NCBI GenBank assembly: GCA_950295325.1
Contig: OX485804.1
Coordinates: 60,790,533 to 60,854,532 of the forward strand
Source: Polytrichum commune
Lineage: Eukaryota > Streptophyta > Polytrichopsida > Polytrichales > Polytrichaceae
Reading direction: 5' to 3'
Length of the DNA stretch: 64,000 bases
Below are positions 26,601 to 61,000 of the stretch, piece by piece (the first letter of the stretch is position 1; the number at the start of each line of letters is the position of its first letter). The position numbers and the translations under genes are program-made. The notes under the pieces were generated by a model, which did no database searches, was not told where the DNA came from, and was given only the letters and a program-made list of their open reading frames with translations.

Positions 26601-26627
26601 CACAAGGTGCAAAATGGTTTGAGAAAC

Positions 26628-27016
26628 TAGAGTCATCCTTAAAATCTTCCAAAAACTTAAGTTCTGGTAGAAAGTTTCGCCCCACATTAGACAAATTATA
26701 ATGTTTAAAGGAGCGTTCAAGTGTTGCTGTAGGAACCCCCCAATTTTGGCCAAGAGATGGTGGTAATATAAAATAAACTCCTTGTCAAATTTCAACTAGC
26801 ACCATTTTAGGTGCCTTCAAAGTTTTTCCACGCAATTCATTTTTACATAGTCATCTTTTGGCCAAAGTCAAACGCCTCCTTTTCATTTCACCATAATTGG
26901 GAGTTCTGACAGCACTTGAACGCTCCTTCAAACATTATAATTTGTCAAAAGTGGGGCAAAACTCCCTACCAAAACATGAGTTTTTGGGAGACTTTAGAAA
27001 TAACTCTACTATCATC
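26628..27016. repeat. Fold-back repeat, about 125-bp arms
   Basis: The left arm (about 26628-26760) and right arm (about 26890-27016) are imperfect reverse complements; both carry GACAAATTATAATGTTT, GGAGCGTTCAAGTG and CCAAAAACT blocks. The spacer is about 130 bp. It lies just beyond the 3' end of the minus-strand membrane-protein gene. Confidence 0.8.
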
Positions 27017-27124: not shown

Positions 27125-27146
27125 GGGGGGGGGGGGGGGGGGGGGG
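27125..27146. repeat. Poly-G tract (22 bases)
   Basis: An uninterrupted run of 22 G, about 20 bp beyond the stop codon of the 27166-28242 gene. On that gene's strand it would be a C run in the 3' untranslated region. Length should be read with caution because such runs are prone to sequencing and assembly error. Confidence 0.9.
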
Positions 27147-27165: not shown

Positions 27166-28242
27166 TTATTCATACTTTGCCCCTATGTTGTCGGAAAATA
27201 TATTTGTAGCGCCCAATTTTGGAGTTATCCTATTGTTGATGTAGCGGCTGCTTCCGGATTGGTTAGCCACGTAGACAAGCTGTTGCTCACGATAAGCAAA
27301 GTACAATGACAATGCTGAGGCAGGCCCACAAAACATGCTGCCTATCACCACGAGTGTAGCCACATTGAACCCATCTTCAAGCACTATTACATAAAGAAAC
27401 GCTAGTAGCAACACCAACACCTCCAAAAGTAGAATATACATCTGAAACTCAGAATTCTTCCACGAGTGCAGAAGCTTGAAGACTCGCCACGGGAGTTGGG
27501 GGTCGCGAATGACGAATAAAATACCAATGAGATGCCACATGAAGCCTGCTTCTGCTTGAAAAAAATGCAAACCCTTAACCCACTTGTGACCTGAAATCTG
27601 TGAGGAGTTGTCCGTTGTGAAGAATGGCAGCCAAAGGAATGCCACTAAAATAGGACACATTTGAAAAATAAGGATAGCTGTTTCTTTGCCTTTGTTTTCG
27701 AAAGGGAACAAGATTGCTGCCGCGCTTAGTTTCAAGAGTACCACGGAAAAACCAATGGCTCCAACTCGAACCACGGAAATTCTCTTGCGCCATATCCCGC
27801 TGGGAGTTCTATCCCCCGAGTCATAGAGTATATAACATGGCAACCAAATTGCGGGTACCACAACCGAGATACCAATAAGTTGGAAGAGCACAACATGGAG
27901 AGGGATGAGGGAGAGAAGCCATCCGGATTCCACCCTCGAGCCTTCCACTCCCATGAAGGCGAAAACCGACACAAGGGTTGAGATCAAATACCCAGTAACC
28001 CAAGTTCCTTCTCGTGTGCTCAATCCTTGTTCAAATGATTGTACCAACACACACACAAAATCATCGACCGGTTTCAACCCCATCCTCCAGCTGTAGAGAG
28101 GCCCCTCTGTCTGGCAATGGTCCCCAAAAGCTTCAATTGGCTCTCCCGCACGGCCAAAGAGAAGATACGATGCGTAAGCTCCAAAGAGCACGAGTGGCGC
28201 TGCCTTCAACACGCGGATTGCATGTGGATCCATCGTTGACAT
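27166..28242 (-). CDS. Intronless multi-pass membrane protein, fungal-like family, unknown function
   Basis: A single 358-aa frame starting at the ATG of MSTMDPHAIRVL; the frame runs 18 codons further upstream but only from a GTG. About eight hydrophobic segments are visible: near residues 8-25, 78-95, 107-135, 155-175, 185-203, 230-245, 268-287 and 290-315. A loop after segment 1 carries PVDDFVCVLVQSFEQGL, and the last segment carries FCGPASALSLYFAYRE. The overall pattern, with a short first membrane segment, a D..L..LV..F stretch, WLLSLIPLHVVLFQ-like and VVVPAIWLPCYIL-like segments and a GP..A..YRE end, recalls uncharacterised integral membrane proteins common in filamentous fungi. That match is from memory. 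The gene lacks introns, unlike its neighbours. Function is unknown; a broken EMC10 copy lies directly upstream. Confidence 0.75.
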   Translation of the reverse strand: MSTMDPHAIRVLKAAPLVLFGAYASYLLFGRAGEPIEAFGDHCQTEGPLYSWRMGLKPVDDFVCVLVQSFEQGLSTREGTWVTGYLISTLVSVFAFMGVEGSRVESGWLLSLIPLHVVLFQLIGISVVVPAIWLPCYILYDSGDRTPSGIWRKRISVVRVGAIGFSVVLLKLSAAAILFPFENKGKETAILIFQMCPILVAFLWLPFFTTDNSSQISGHKWVKGLHFFQAEAGFMWHLIGILFVIRDPQLPWRVFKLLHSWKNSEFQMYILLLEVLVLLLAFLYVIVLEDGFNVATLVVIGSMFCGPASALSLYFAYREQQLVYVANQSGSSRYINNRITPKLGATNIFSDNIGAKYE

Positions 28243-28429
28243 TGCTGCGCAAGATTTGTACTCACAAAAAGGCTTCCCACCACCACCACTAATCACTCAC
28301 ATGTCCCGTGTAAACTTCAAAAACCAATCAACTTGCATGTCCAGAATAAGGAAGAAGAAAAAAGGCGAGAGGCGAGAGGCTCAAATCACTCAACCCACTC
28401 ACTCTTCACAGCTGCATGAAGTCACCACA

Positions 28430-30400
28430 TTCTTCCCCTGCAACCCCAACAAGCTGGGCAGGAACTCAAAACTTGTAGTAGTGACCATGATCCTTTCTCA
28501 CCAAGTCCTGTTCAAGTCAAAAAGGTTCAAATCAGCAAGCTTTTGCACAATCAAATGGGCTGTAACACTTCACCATATGCGTTGTACATTTCCAGAAAAC
28601 CAACACATTTCCAGAAGGAAAAAGAGAGGATCAAATCATTCAATCCTCTCACTTATCCCAAAGTTGCATAATGTGACCATATTTCCCTGCAACTCAAACA
28701 AGCTGGGTAGGAACTCGAACCTTGTAGTAGTGATTATGATCTTCTCACCAAGTCCTGTTCATGTCAAAAAGGTTCGAATCAGTGAGTTTACACACAATCA
28801 AATGGGCTGCAAAACTTCACCATGTACAATGTGCACGTTGATTGATTGATTATTCTGAGCATCTGATCCACATTATGAGCTTGCCCTGTCTGTCTTAATT
28901 TTCTCAACAAAATTCTTGACTGCAGTAGCATCAAAATCAAGTTCAGTAATAATCACTTCAATGACTTTCACTTGCTCATCCTCTGGTAAAGCATCGGGTT
29001 CTCACCACTCATGGCTTGGTTAAAAGTCTGCAATGACAAACGCGACGTATGTTAACATCAATGAAATAGAAACCCTCCATTTTCAGCTGTATCCATTCAT
29101 TCCACTTCCTCCTCATTGTCTGCATTGCAACTCCATTGCAGACCTCATCCAAAGTAAGATGAAGTCAACATAAACGTATTGTAACAAAACCAAACTGCGT
29201 GCTAATGATCAGATGCAAGTGATAAAAACCAAACAGCCAACATGGATACACAGGAGTATGAACAGATAATCGAAGAATTAGGGTGGTCCATTGCACCCTC
29301 ATGCTACCGCCTGAGCTTCTAACCATTCCTTTCCAGCTACTGCCTACTTGCATTTCACAACTGCCCTAGCTAGCTCACTGAAGAAAAGAACAGAAAATTG
29401 AAGAATTAGGGTGGTCCATTGCACCGTCATGGACAAATGCTAAAAAATTCTAAATATTCTGGACTCGCATATTGAAGGAGTAGCACGATCGAGCAGGGAA
29501 GGGATCAAGTTTGCAATTGGCTTTTGTATCGATTGATTAGGCAGATTTAAGCAAAGAGCACGTGTCTGCTCAAATACCAGATACATCAACACCACGGATT
29601 TACTGGAAAGCTCCCTCGAAACTTGGCTTTTATAAAATTGCTGGACATGTAAGGGCAGCAATTGTGTTGATCATCAATCAGCCCGACATGCTAATGTAAA
29701 CTGAACCCAGGGGTGGCGATTCTCCCCTTTCGAACAGCTCTTTCTGGATCACTTCTTATGCTTGTATTACATTGATGCTTTGTTACTCCACAAAGATTAG
29801 AGCAACATGCTTGGAAAAAGTACGACACTGAGATATCCATCGATACCATTTGTGTCAGAATTAAAAACAATCAGAAGCAATTTTTCTAAACAAGGTCTTG
29901 GCTCCATCCAGACTCACGACGTATTGATTTTCACTTGTAAGAATCCAAAGTCTTATAGATCCAGGTCATGATAGGAGAGCAGCTCCAAAGTATATAATGC
30001 TTCTCGAAAATGATATTTTTAGGATCTCTAAACCAGGTTCTGAAGAAGCTAACCACTGCTGGATCTGCAACACATAGTTAATTGCCACACCAGGAAACTG
30101 AATGCTACTCAATCAGCAATTTGGCTGAGTGATACTCATAGATAGACCACTCCTCAAGTGTTTGCAAAACTGGCTGTGCAGTCGGCTAGGTCTGCAATCT
30201 ATATTTCAGTGTGGGGTGAGGTTTGCAAACAATTGGAGAGTGATCTATCTGCGTCTGATTTAACAGTATGACACGTCACTTGCATTTCATTTCCATGCCC
30301 TAATTGCCAAGGACGACTGTCACCGGCTCCATATCAACTCATCATGCAATGTAGAAACTAGCCACCACCATACATACCTGGCAAGCAGAATTAGCCCTCC
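28430..30400 (-). pseudogene. Truncated, decayed copy of EMC10 (exon 1 end to exon 3)
   Basis: Minus-strand blocks match the intact EMC10 gene in order. The exon 1 end with its donor (30376-30400; CCAG then GTATG) pairs with 54885-54910. An intron 1 block with CATTCCTTTCCAGCTACT (29320-29345) pairs with 53764-53785. The exon 2 acceptor and start (29014-29034) pair with 53580-53600. Exon 3-like sequence occurs twice, at about 28460-28530 and 28710-28790, against 53310-53400. The exon 2 start has one extra T, which shifts the frame, and exons 4 to 8 are missing. It is therefore a partial segmental duplication including intron sequence, not a retrocopy, and not a working gene. Confidence 0.75.
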
Positions 30401-54000: not shown

Positions 54001-55256
54001 GTAGGCTCAAATATCTAATACCGCAAGTCAATTCTAAAAGGCCACTCAGCTGCAAGGCATGAAGCCAAAAAACCGAATAGTTTGCACCTTGGCCCCTCAT
54101 TAATTGCTGGAAATTTTGGCATGTGCTGTGGTGAGTCAGAATGACATCCTAAGCTAAATGATAACAAATATGTAATTTTTTGCTGACTAATGTTGACACA
54201 TTCATCAACATTACCTAAACAAAGAGCGTTAGGTGGTCATTGAGGGGTGGCTTAAACCAAGGCCTTAGCCCACATCCCATGGGAGCTCTGAGGGGTAAGC
54301 TGCCTAAGGCTGGAATGATTGGGGGTATCTGGATGAACCGGATATTTCAACCAACTATATGAGAACCTAGGGGCTTGCCCTTTAGGGAGATAGATAAGTG
54401 GAGGTCGGCTTGTCCGCGCCCATCTGTTCAAGGTATTCACCTCTGAAATGAGGCAGTAGTCTTCACAGGAAGCAGTACTCTTCAGGGGGTCTCTAATTCT
54501 CGTGATGCCCATTTTGGGATTCCACATAGAGTTAGAAGAACTCGAAGATGAAGAAGCGACACCATAATTCACGCTGGTGGCAGCATCGGAGTCGTCTCTT
54601 CACCTCAGCGCCTAAATAATTGCTGGATATTAGGTGAGTTGCTGTGATCCATCAGAATTATATACTCAGCTAAATGATAATGAATATGTACATTTTGCTC
54701 ATTCATACTCACAGATTGCCTCACTCTCATCCAACAATGAAAGCTAACCAAAGAGCATTGGATGACCATCCGTGTCGCCGATTGCAGATAATAGGCTATA
54801 CCACACCCCTTGCACTTCATTCCGTGCCCTAATTACCAAAGCCAACATTGCACACCACACAATCCATTGACACAAAATAAGTAGCCATCATACCTGGCGC
54901 CCATTGGCAGAAGTCCTCAACCTAGCTGAAAAGGTCCCAGCCGATGAGAATTCGGAGTCTCCAAAAGAATGTTCCAAAGTGAACTCAAGAAGATTGTCTC
55001 CTGTCACGCCGGTTGGAGTTGTAGAGGTTGCGGGGGCAGGTTTCCTCGCCTTGACGCCTGCGCTGACGCTCCCTCTATAATCCAAATCTCCTTTATCGAT
55101 TGAGGCCCGGGTCTTGATAAGACCCGGCTCTCCGCCTACCAGTCCCCACTCCTCCTCATCTTCGGCGAGCTCGTCGGATTGGAAGGCCGCGACATGGGGC
55201 GATGCGATGACGATGATGCCCAGCAGTGCGAGCAGCAGCAGATGCTTGATCGCCAT
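51100..55256 (-). CDS. EMC10: ER membrane protein complex subunit 10, 8 exons
   Basis: Subunit of the ER membrane complex, which inserts and stabilises membrane proteins. Exons on the minus strand: 54894-55256, 53529-53591, 53262-53354, 52920-52967, 52414-52485, 52238-52296, 51994-52099, 51100-51249. All junctions are GT..AG and the sum is 954 nt (317 aa plus stop). The protein starts with a signal peptide (MAIKHLLLLALLGIIVIASP, then HVAAFQ), followed by an acidic stretch. The lumenal domain is recognised by LEFTLEHSFG, FSSAGTFSARLR, TLTKLRLARHPL, DGLYRVRVPASLVNP, SYVMASIKARCL and SSEQAPR. A C-terminal membrane segment (WMYIVPFGLIVVNAITQ) precedes a short Pro/Ala/Arg-rich tail. The order and spacing match plant EMC10. 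The exon 2 donor was chosen so that KKAFE joins DLVREDG, as in the family; reading through instead soon meets a stop. The gene looks intact. Confidence 0.94.
53592..54893 (-). other. EMC10 intron 1 with a GC-richer patch
   Basis: This 1302-bp intron contains a GC-richer open stretch at 54252-54572 on the minus strand (106 codons, Ser run near its start) without a recognised domain. The part around 53760-53800 is conserved in the broken EMC10 copy at 29320-29345, while the GC-rich patch has no counterpart there. The patch may therefore be a later insertion. Confidence 0.6.
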
Positions 55257-55499: not shown

Positions 55500-58289
55500 G
55501 TTGTTTGGTATTTTATACTACATGAAGGAAGCTAGCATGTGTGCAGTGACGGGGAAAAAAAGTCCAACAACGGCTATTAAGTAAGGATATCAATACAATT
55601 GGGTTATAAATTTTGGATATAATACGTTTGAGAGACAATAAATATTGAATTGGACCCGATTACTATGGATTATAAGGTGAATGATGATTCATGATTATGG
55701 GTACTTTATTGAAATGACAAATACATAAATGAAGTGTGAAGTGTGAAGTGTCTTGTTATGGCGAACAACCAAATAGTTGCACCATCATTGTGCACATTCA
55801 TATCCCACATGCTAACATATATGTTTCTATCTCAAAATTATGTGTCCATGCCAAGCACTAACATCACTCTTAGCCAGTTTTGCCACACCCGTAAGCTTGA
55901 GAAGATGCATCGCCTCATTGCAGGTGAATGTGGGTGCATGAATGATTTTGTCAGTGGCATAGTCAACCTTGCACAATTACCTAAAAACATAATATAAATG
56001 TTTGCAAGAAACCCATTGATTCTTCTTCCCCGTTGGCATTGATGATATTATAGCACAATCAAGGCAAGAACATTATTTGCAATTGACATGAGGTAAGCCT
56101 TTTCCTCCTTGGAGACTATGGTTATAATGCAACCAAATCTTGGGTAGGGGATGGTAGTCGCTCCCACCACATAATACCCCTCCGTATGTAATCAATTCTC
56201 CCTTTTATTTCTATGTTCCGCCAACCGTGCTGCCATATTACAATGAATTGCCTTCGAAAACCATGTGGTGGGGTGAGCATTTGATTTTGTTGGAACACAA
56301 AAATGTGATCGAGGGATGGGAAGATTGGGCATTGTACCCAAACGATGATGTGGTGACATGGCCTCCCATTGCTGCAATTGAGAAACAACATCCTCCAACG
56401 CAAAAACTTCCTTTCGTGTGAGGGTTGTTCCAACCTTCACCAACCACATAGTTACAATATTCAACCAATAAACACCCATTTTTCTTGCTAGCTTTCACGC
56501 AATGGTTAATGTCAATTGTGCAAAACCAAAAATCCGTAGTTACATGGTTGTTGGAATGGAACTCCTTCTTCAGACCTCTGTAAGTGGTCGCGAGTATATC
56601 ATGTTTATTTTCCCCCAGTTTGGGCTTGCATGGATGCCTTGTGTTGGCCTACAAAGCATGGCACTCTTCTTCGATGGATAAGGCAATCTAGAAATGTGCC
56701 AATAAGTATTATGGACATTTTGATTCCAAAACTTTGTTGGTGTGAGACAACACATTGTCATCATTTATGAGGAACTCCTCAATGCATGCCCTTAGTGAAT
56801 ATTGTGTTAGGGCAGGGGATGGAGTAGTTCACCTTCTTTGGACGGTGAAAATCATACTCAGACCTCAAAGGCAAGTCCAATTTCTTTTGGTTGATCCAAA
56901 CAATACATACACCCCCAACACATAGTTTTTTTTTGTGTTGAGGTCCTCTACCCTTGGACAAGACCTCATAGCCTTTTCAAGGAGCTTGGGATCACTAATG
57001 TGAGCTACAACTTTCAACTTCAATGAAGGTTGTTATGGCCTTTCCTTCAAAGAACCAATTTTAAGCCATGAACGGTAATTAACAATTTGCATAAATGCTC
57101 AAATCATGTCATCCACCGTTGCCTTATATAGGCATGTCATTTTGTAACCTAGCTACTGCAACCACTTGTTATGCATTGGTTTAATGAGGTTGCAAGTAAG
57201 CATCTCAATACATTACTCCAAAATCATTATATTCGGTAATCGGAGACTTTTTCATAATTTTGAGACTATTGAAGGACATAGTTTTTCAAATAAAGAACAA
57301 GAATAACACAAAAATATATTCAATGTGACTTAATAAAGTGATTTGCATGGGCAACATTAACCAATTTGGCACAAGTACATGTCATCACAATAAGAAATTG
57401 AACTAGATATTAAACCATTTGCATTTATTTTGAGACTTTCCAAAGTCACTAATTAACAAATATAATAGTGATCAAAGTAAGATCCTACAATAGGTGACGT
57501 AACACAAATATTACAAGAGTTTAGGAAATTGAGACCGGAACAAAATGTAAGAGGATGCATAATAATTATGTAATTAAGGACACTTACAATGAGCATGTGA
57601 CCTCCTCATTGTCTATATTGCTAATGCCAAAACCCCAACCACTCGGACAATATGTACATGTTTTTCTTTGTGCTTGCTCCCAATGACAACCACCAAGCTC
57701 GTATAACATGGTATTTGACATCCGCCTCCTTCATATTGTTGGCGCCCTTGTATTCCATGTAAAGTTGATTGTGTTGATTTTGCAATGACAACTATATATG
57801 TTTTTGTGTTACCTTATACAAACTAGTGGATCAATGAAAAATATGTGTATGCTCGTGCCCCTCCAAAGGATCGGTTGGATCACCATCACCATAGACCTTC
57901 TTCACATCACTCCAATTTGTTTGTGCATTGTATGCCATGAAACCCTTGAAGCTAACATTGTGACATCATTTTTGAGCATGACTACATTAAATTTCTCTTA
58001 AAACAAGGTATGAGCACGGGCATTGTTTGATTACATATCACAACATGCTACCATGAGTACCTTACAATGTTTGTTGTCATAGATATGGCATGCCATCGTA
58101 GTCCAATCATAAGACCATTTACATGGTCAACCATCATCCAAAAATCCTCCATGTCTCTCTCCCAAGAAGAGACGACACCAAAAGTCTCCAACAAAACATC
58201 GTGACCACAACGCAGTAGCTGAGAGCAGTCATGCTCATGTCGCAACAAGTGCGATACCTACTCCATCTATTGATTCGTCTTCCTGAATC
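55500..58289. other. Intergenic, with decayed minus-strand coding-like fragments
   Basis: Overlapping short minus-strand frames at 56122-56498 and 56779-56961, and another at 58048-58248 (with MEDFWMMVDHVNGLMIGLRW), have protein-like composition but are broken by stops and frameshifts. They may be relics of a transposon protein. No family could be named. Confidence 0.4.
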
Positions 58290-59485
58290 TCAAGTGAGGC
58301 TTATTATGCTCGTCTCACTTCAGAATACCCCACCAATGATTCTCTGTGGTTTGCGTATTTAGACACCACAAAGCATATGACAGATATGAGGCATTGGTTT
58401 TCTATTTCTCAAGATGTGAATGATAAGTGTTGGACAATTTCGGTTGCTAATGACCATATGATGTATGTGCGAGGTATTCGTGACATCGATGTCAATTCTA
58501 TGTTCAACATGGTTGTGCCCACACTCAGACTGAAGGACGTGTTATACGTTTCCAAGCTAAAAAGAAACCTTGTCTCTACCAGCCGTTTAACAGAGAATAG
58601 GGTGGCGATTGTTCATGTCAGGAATAAGTGCAAGATGATAAGCAAGGATGGCCATGGCTATTTTGTGATGACAGATCAAAAAGCAGGAGGGTTGTGGCAA
58701 TTGAATATCAAGACCTTTCGATATCAATCATCTGCACACATGGCCGTTTCAGCACCCCATGCGCCCTCAACTGGTGGACACACACGAGTTACCAAGACTC
58801 TCATGCGGAGGCACGCCATGTCAATTTTCAAACCATCAAGCAGATGAGCCGACTCAAAACAGTTCATGGTCTATTGTCATTTGAAAAAGCAGATTCCCTA
58901 GTGTGTGTAGGGTGTGCACACGGGAAAATTCACCGATCACCTTTCTCCATCAATCCTGACAGAAAACGTGCATTCAGACTTGGTATGTTTTTCCACACTG
59001 ATATATATGGACCTCTACAAGTCGCATCTAAAGGGGGACATCGCTATTTCATCACCTATAAGGATGATCATAGTGGGTATAGATTAGTATTCTTCCTTAA
59101 GGATCATAAGAAAATTCTGGATACTTTCAAGAGCATGTACAAACTAGCCAAGCGTGAGACATGTCATGCCATGGTTAGATTGAGGTCGGGCAACGGCTGA
59201 GAGTATTTATCTTATGCATTTCATGAGTATCTCCGGATAAAAGGCATTCGTCATGATGTGAAGAGACCGTATTCTCCCGAACAATATGCAGTGGCGGAGA
59301 GAGACAGCAGGATGTTAGCAGAGTGCGCCAGAAGCATGCTCTATCATAAGCAGATGCCCCTTCATTTTTGGGGAGAAGCTATCAATACTGCAGTATATGT
59401 CCTCAACAAGGTTGCAAGCAGAACCATCCATGGTTTAACACCATTGCAAAAGTGGAGTACCAAAGCAGGTGCGACAGAAGCTTGA
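58290..59485 (+). pseudogene. Copia protease / gag-pre-integrase / integrase region, broken
   Basis: A protease-like active-site region (FAYLDTTKHMTD) is followed by LKDVLYVSKLKRNLVS, then a frame change near 58790. A zinc-type VCVGCAHGKIHR and the integrase core with HTDIYGP and DDHSGYRLVFF follow. The motif normally reading RSDNGGE has lost its catalytic Asp (Gly codon at 59189-59191) and carries a TGA at 59198-59200. The later VAERDSRM retains the Glu. A further stop ends the frame at 59483-59485. Confidence 0.9.
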
Positions 59486-60119
59486 CAGCAAGGCACGTGA
59501 ATGCATGTCTGTGGATTATTGTAACACATCGAAGGCTTATCGCTTATGGTGTTTCTAGAAACAGAAGATTATTGTCACACGCGATGTTATTTTCGACGAG
59601 GACGTCATGTCCTATCCACAACCCACTTTGACTTCACTGGGACCAAATTATTTGAGTTTTTTTCTTCAGAAGCCATTGAATATATGCGGGTCCAACATCC
59701 GTCACTGTCATTGCAGTGGAAGATATCCCCGGCCTTGCTTCAACAGTAGAAGTATCATCAGTGGGAGTAAAGCCTGCTATCTCGGCATCTTTACGTGGCT
59801 CTCATGATTTTTTCTGCAGGGCACTTTCACGTTTCTCCATCAGGTTCGGAGAGAATGCTAGAGTCACCTAGCTAGTATTAGTTCTTCCTCACAAGATATT
59901 TCCTCCAGGTCACAAGTGGACAGCTCATCACCCACTCAAGATGGCTCATCATCCAATCATGGTGGTTCTTCTTCGTCATTGGAAGATGAATCAAGAAGTG
60001 AAACCTGTTGTCTACGAATTCGCAGTCTTACCGACATTTACAACCACACAAGCACAGGTACATCGATGACATGCGTTGTTCTTACCCACAAGGGGGATAC
60101 GCCTCGAATATTAGTTTTG

Positions 60120-61000
60120 CCTCCAGAACCTGTGACGTGTGCTCAAGCGTTGAAATCCGATGATTGTGAGGAGTGGAAGAAGGCTATGATGGAAGAAATC
60201 AACTCACTGTTGAAAAACGAAACATGGACGTCTGAGAAGCTACTTCTAGTAAGAACCACTGTCAAGAACAAGTGGATTTTCAAAATCAAGGTGAAGTCTA
60301 GTGGAGAGATCGAACGGTTTAAAGCACGGTTAGTCGCTGAAGGGTTCTCTCAAACCTATGGGATGGATTACCAGGAGACATTTGCTCCTACAGCGCGCTC
60401 AAAGAGCATTCGAATTGTACTATCAATTGCGGGGGCCAATGGGTTTCACTTGGTACAGTTTGATATTAAAACTGCATACCTTAATGCCCTTATTCATGAA
60501 ATCATCTTTAAGGATTTACCTATTGGGTTCGAAGACAAACTTTATCGTACGTTTCCACATTGTAGAGGGATGGTGTGTAGGATTCGAAAAGGGTTGTATG
60601 GCTTAAAACAATCCGCGAGAGGTTGGAATAAGACTTTCTCAGTTTTTCTCAAACAATATGATCTGCTTCAAAGCTCTGCTGATCCATGCATTTTCTATTC
60701 AAGCTCGTTTTGGCTTTGTGGGTTAATGATGGACTGGCTATGTGCCATGACAAAGCTCTCCTTTCACAGATGACTTTTTAGTTGAAGACCACTTTTGAAG
60801 TCACAGAGGAAGATGCTGACATGTATGTGGGTTTACACATTACACGCGACAGGTTTACTATTTATTGATCAACAACGATTCACAGAGACACTTCTGACCA
60901 AGTATGGATTCCAAGAAGCCAATCCCGTGGCAACACCAAGTGGCCCTCCTGTTCATTTATGCAGACCAAGCCCAGATGACATTGATACTGATATCCTTGT
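60120..61000 (+). pseudogene. Copia reverse transcriptase, broken
   Basis: Visible motifs are EEWKKAMMEEI near the start, NKWIFKIKVKSSGEIERFKA, RLVAEGFSQTYGMDYQETFA, FDIKTAYLNA and KGLYGLKQS. The frame shifts before the catalytic box, which reads WVNDG at 60719-60733, so the first Asp of the usual pair is Asn. In-frame stops follow near 60778 and 60867. The RNase H part is absent. Confidence 0.9.

Follow-up and report, generated by a model that had tools for sequence, protein, structure and literature searches.

The open frame at positions 27166–28242 of the window, by which we mean the whole 64,000-nucleotide stretch of Polytrichum commune DNA analysed here, is a real, maintained gene of an unnamed three-copy family of plant membrane proteins. 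Our best overall explanation, which we hold tentatively, is that the gene is one of a set of paralogues encoding membrane or ER proteins, that these act as epoxide-opening enzymes in the manner of the fungal proteins AscI, AurD and CtvD, and that the family had a fungal ancestor. The features referred to below are as follows.

27166..28242, minus strand: single-exon open frame of 358 aa, with ATG at 28242 and TAA ending at 27166; the window copy (contig C2) of the three-gene family.
27307..28212, minus strand: stretch with nine averaged hydrophobic segments, from alignment-averaged hydropathy (coordinates converted from residues 11–312).
27166..27285, minus strand: C-terminal tail following YREQ (residue 320 on), unlike the sisters in the three-copy alignment.

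The preliminary description of this DNA had noted an intronless open frame without giving its strand. The frame is real, occupies exactly this interval with 358 codons in a single exon, and lies on the minus strand. It is the longest ATG-initiated ORF in the whole window, and a chance origin was rejected because, when the window was simulated 60 times with a first-order Markov model, the longest ORF reached 139 aa on average and 213 aa at most. On the plus strand of the same interval, the one frame translated was full of stops, and the longest ATG-initiated ORF in the three frames was 69 aa. The coding GC content is 47% for this copy and 49% and 55% for its sisters on contigs C4 and C5, respectively, and GC3 across the three copies is 50%, 53% and 69%.

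These sisters were found by a six-frame search of the window protein against its own assembly (408 Mb, 64 contigs), which returned four rows from three genes. One row is the window copy itself on C2, another is a gene on C4 (46% identity over residues 2–328), and the remaining two are parts of a gene on C5. With the C5 protein as query, these three genes came up again, together with a single row at E 0.5 that we took for chance. The C4 gene encodes 330 aa in a single exon. That on C5 (335 aa) has two exons separated by one 699-bp phase-0 intron with GT..AG ends, and its joined exons align precisely in frame with the intronless sisters. By eye, this intron (C5:32367734-32368432) seems to contain a short inverted repeat, which may be an inserted element. 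We also considered the possibility that the C2 and C4 genes are intronless as retrocopies of an intron-bearing gene.

The gene had been described as conserved-looking and maintained from a single copy, and the sisters bear this out: both align with the window protein over most of its length, at 45% (C4) and 48% (C5) identity in the three-copy alignment, and they are 67% identical to one another. Divergence between C4 and C5 (dN 0.22, dS 1.15–1.32, ratio approx. 0.17–0.19) indicates purifying selection between these two sisters. dS was obtained for this pair only; the C2–C4 and C2–C5 pairs were judged by codon-position differences, with third positions differing at 0.65–0.66 and second positions at 0.28–0.30. 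Taken together, the codon divergence argues that the family is old within the lineage and constrained. A recent segmental duplication was rejected, since in blastn the window matched the flanks of C4 in 17 rows and those of C5 in 7, and these rows resembled scattered repeats. In the corresponding tblastn comparison, eight of the ten rows fell in a stretch of Ty1/copia remnants at window positions 57208–60773, which includes a reverse transcriptase match (60066–60773) and has relatives close to the C5 copy. A stretch of about 150 nt upstream of the start codon is present twice within 28433–28835, 247–249 bp apart and 84–85% identical; the interval 28243–29000 matched only itself in the genome search.

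An intronless frame raises the question of whether the window contains fungal contamination or an assembly artefact. For the latter, a run of 22 G on the plus strand (27125–27146), just downstream of the gene, marks a possible assembly-error site. The gene is located 60.82 Mb along the 70.3-Mb contig C2, one of seven contigs (77.9, 70.3, 59.2, 59.1, 52.9, 44.7 and 42.1 Mb) that make up almost the whole genome, the next, C8, being 0.15 Mb. The two diverged sisters sit on other chromosome-scale contigs, one beside ORFs with B3 domains and one carrying an intron, as expected for integration in a plant chromosome. Against contamination, too, is a foldback (inverted-repeat) element that begins about 150 bp downstream of the gene and is found genome-wide. 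It spans 26623–27013, has arms of 104 nt with 83% complementarity, and is present on each of the seven large contigs in at least 89 rows (40 scored of 600 candidates), mostly 72–83% identical. Judged from the assembly rather than from reads, contamination is very unlikely, given the placement in a 70.3-Mb contig and the two diverged sisters in the genome.

Pfam scans covered eight of the 169 ORFs neighbouring the C4 and C5 copies. Beside C4, five carried a B3 DNA-binding domain and one had no match; near C5, one was an LRR protein and one a Ty1/copia reverse transcriptase. The C4 sister has five or more ORFs with a B3 domain around it within C4:3846000-3869999, which may form a local B3 cluster. 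Within the window itself, the only matches of three ORFs from the area ascribed to FBL15 were to LRR models and lay below the cut-off, and no Pfam match was obtained for the ORF at 54888–55256, which we take to be the start of EMC10. The dynein heavy-chain family had 13 matches in the genome, 12 of them above the cut-off, and none in 14 control genomes; flagellar dyneins mark plants with motile sperm. Together with the seven large contigs, these matches suggest a seed-free plant, probably a moss, and seven chromosomes in the haploid set would agree with the Polytrichaceae. A search of the genome for a tRNA-end pattern found nothing.

The preliminary description had counted about eight membrane segments. 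Hydropathy gives eight for the window protein, eight for the C4 sister and nine for the C5 sister, and averaging over the three-copy alignment resolves nine (residues 11–29, 56–74, 81–99, 109–127, 160–178, 189–207, 227–245, 270–288 and 293–311). The product is thus probably a polytopic membrane protein, and what we say of it beyond this is what we infer. Combining the alignment with the averaged hydropathy reveals that invariant charged and aromatic residues gather at the segment ends; among the many residues common to all three copies are D60, E100, D141, R246, D247 and E289. The proteins diverge at the C-terminus, where the C4 and C5 copies terminate in SKKGQ, of the KKXX type, while the window copy lacks such an end and has a different and longer tail. 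A KKXX ending is an ER-retrieval signal of membrane proteins, so the KKGQ ends in two of the three copies suggest that at least these two reside in the ER.

Database searches yielded no credible relative in the prokaryote, virus, phage, plasmid, Pfam, NCBIfam or PDB collections. For the window protein, no Pfam family scored above its cut-off, the nearest being DUF2834 (15.3 bits against a cut-off of 22.9, E 0.024) and DUF4293 (8.7 bits against 27, E 2.6). Across the three family members, DUF4293 matched two (best E 0.00067), and the NCBIfam model ntrB matched one (E 0.00076). We read the DUF2834, DUF4293 and ntrB matches as chance hydrophobic similarity. Among PDB sequences, the window protein matched just seven phospholipase A2 chains (E 1.9–3.1) and a profile of the three copies matched none. 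Structure prediction was too poor to use: AlphaFold models of two sequences had mean pLDDT values of 38.7 and 44.9 (pTM 0.23 and 0.43), and with an E limit of 10 Foldseek on the better model returned 53 rows from PDB and 19 from BFVD, the best at E 1.7 and 0.37 and none at or below 0.001. Given the model quality, we treated these rows as meaningless.

The same searches bear on whether the donor was a bacterium or some other non-fungal organism. Mosses do acquire genes from bacteria, as in the bacterial NAS described for Tetraphidales in the excerpted account of that gene (PMC12454661). For the present family, the genomes of 84,980 prokaryote species were scanned twice by pattern, a method that reaches close relatives only; these scans gave 81 and 58 stretches, none of them confirmed. 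Four scans of viral contigs, with the same reach, gave 34, 80, 29 and 63 stretches, again with none confirmed. Plasmids searched by tblastn with the window and C5 proteins gave nothing, and phages gave nothing for the window protein at E up to 1. For the C5 protein, phages gave nine records (E 0.3–2, approx. 27% identity over 36% of the protein), which lie under methylase or activator genes where annotated and which we took as chance. We regard a bacterial or other non-fungal donor as improbable.

Turning to function, the explanation that we favour would make 27166–28242 a working nuclear gene, one of three diverged paralogues. Its product would be an intramembrane acid–base enzyme working like the fungal membrane epoxide hydrolases AscI, AurD and CtvD, opening an epoxide on a lipophilic chain and steering ring closure. 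Invariant acidic residues at the segment ends would be the candidate acids and bases and, by analogy with AurD, the six residues named above are the candidates. The enzyme class, like the fungal origin, is a less certain part of this explanation and is suggested by a presumed sequence resemblance. For the fungal enzymes, the excerpts available give AscI as 29% identical to AurD and 27% to CtvD (PMC8827043), describe hydrolases of this type as membrane-bound (PMC12312803), and report TreD as approximately 21% similar to AurD, with TreD and its P450 partner both membrane-bound (PMC10682982). Calculations on AurD are reported, in the part of that work available, to favour a mechanism in which acidic and basic residues provide activation at the same time (PMC4979870). 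Cyclases of the AscF/MacJ type were our first lead; this was dropped on the excerpted statement that AscI is not similar to AscF and DMOA-type cyclases (PMC8902786).

The same family could instead consist of transporters, channels or non-catalytic ER membrane factors, a reading that we consider quite possible, if rather less than even. Eight or nine hydrophobic segments fit many transporters as well, and we recognised no catalytic signature in the family. Invariant charged and aromatic residues at segment ends fit an enzyme, although they would also fit a transporter, and neither Pfam nor NCBIfam offers a well-matching transporter family.

As for origin, the epoxide-opening explanation has a gene of fungal ancestry passing into this plant lineage ahead of the divergence of the three copies. 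We take the window protein to resemble fungal integral membrane proteins and, on this presumed resemblance, put a fungal origin of the family at near even. The preliminary description had also argued for transfer from the absence of introns. Introns are indeed absent from the window copy and from C4, but not from C5 with its GT..AG intron; with an intron in one of three copies, missing introns are weak evidence of transfer. The intron would also fit an old plant or eukaryotic family that descended vertically: an unnamed membrane protein of bryophytes or streptophytes that would have kin in other seed-free plants, would have been lost or gone unnoticed in flowering plants, and would look fungal only since so few families of the kind have been described. 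The three diverged copies, with their saturated dS, point to long residence and fit this account. Against it are the presumed fungal pattern of the protein and the lack of a named Pfam family scoring above its cut-off for the window protein, the more so as Pfam covers many plant membrane families. Vertical descent is accordingly a serious contender, to which we give somewhat under an even chance.

Transfers of this kind have precedents. According to the available part of the NAS study, mosses received this gene in independent transfers from fungi and from bacteria; Polytrichales carry a copy of fungal type, for which passage from one moss to another is the explanation given, and some of the moss copies contain introns (PMC12454661). 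Fungal-like terpene synthases (MTPSL) and a possible fungal GH88 are reported for bryophytes in an excerpt of a further study (PMC12890914), and approximately 20 well-supported fungus-to-plant events are counted in another (PMC12448838, likewise excerpted). The present genome contains one match to the nicotianamine synthase (NAS) family (PF03059, E 9.1e-60, in a 395-aa open frame at C4:11912553-11913218); one of the 14 control genomes also matches. Among the literature matches listed (titles and the starts of abstracts), none reported that bryophytes had gained a membrane epoxide hydrolase or cyclase by transfer.

If the family is fungal, it would bring a class of membrane enzymes into the set of genes transferred to early-branching land plants and would be a candidate for moss specialised metabolism. 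If it is AscI/AurD/CtvD-like, the gene product would be an ER enzyme of specialised metabolism, and a true ring-closing activity would make this an enzyme class not known from plants. The fullest version, in which a seed-free plant acquired a fungal intramembrane epoxide cyclase, kept it through the divergence of three membrane copies and makes ring-closed polyether- or meroterpenoid-like metabolites with it, is unlikely. If the family is not fungal, it is still a maintained three-copy family of plant membrane proteins without a Pfam name.

Like AscI, AurD, CtvD and AstD, the window family is polytopic, with 8–9 hydrophobic segments in the three copies. It presumably also has its motifs in a similar sequence to theirs, with an acidic residue ahead of the second group of segments, VEGxR, and a late GPA followed by R-E. 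The fungal genes are described, in the excerpts available, as members of polyketide or meroterpenoid gene clusters, whereas no such cluster was seen by the three plant copies in the ORFs scanned: the eight of 169 neighbours of C4 and C5 and seven other window ORFs gave B3, LRR or Ty1/copia matches or nothing in Pfam, with no epoxidase or polyketide synthase among them. A second comparison, by description, is with meroterpenoid cyclases of the Pyr4/Trt1 type, which are presumably shorter (approx. 240 aa, against 330–358 aa) and are described in excerpt as seven-membrane-spanning, against the 8–9 segments here. They too are multi-pass membrane enzymes, reported in the available parts of two accounts to start ring closure by protonation (PMC10949012, PMC8235479). 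The documented fungus-to-bryophyte transfers of NAS, MTPSL and GH88 are based on phylogenies that include both fungal and plant sequences, while the present family, a membrane protein without a Pfam name, is linked to fungi by presumed resemblance. As in those transfers, the gene sits among the plant genes of a seed-free plant and, as in the excerpted account of moss NAS, an intron is present in some copies (PMC12454661).
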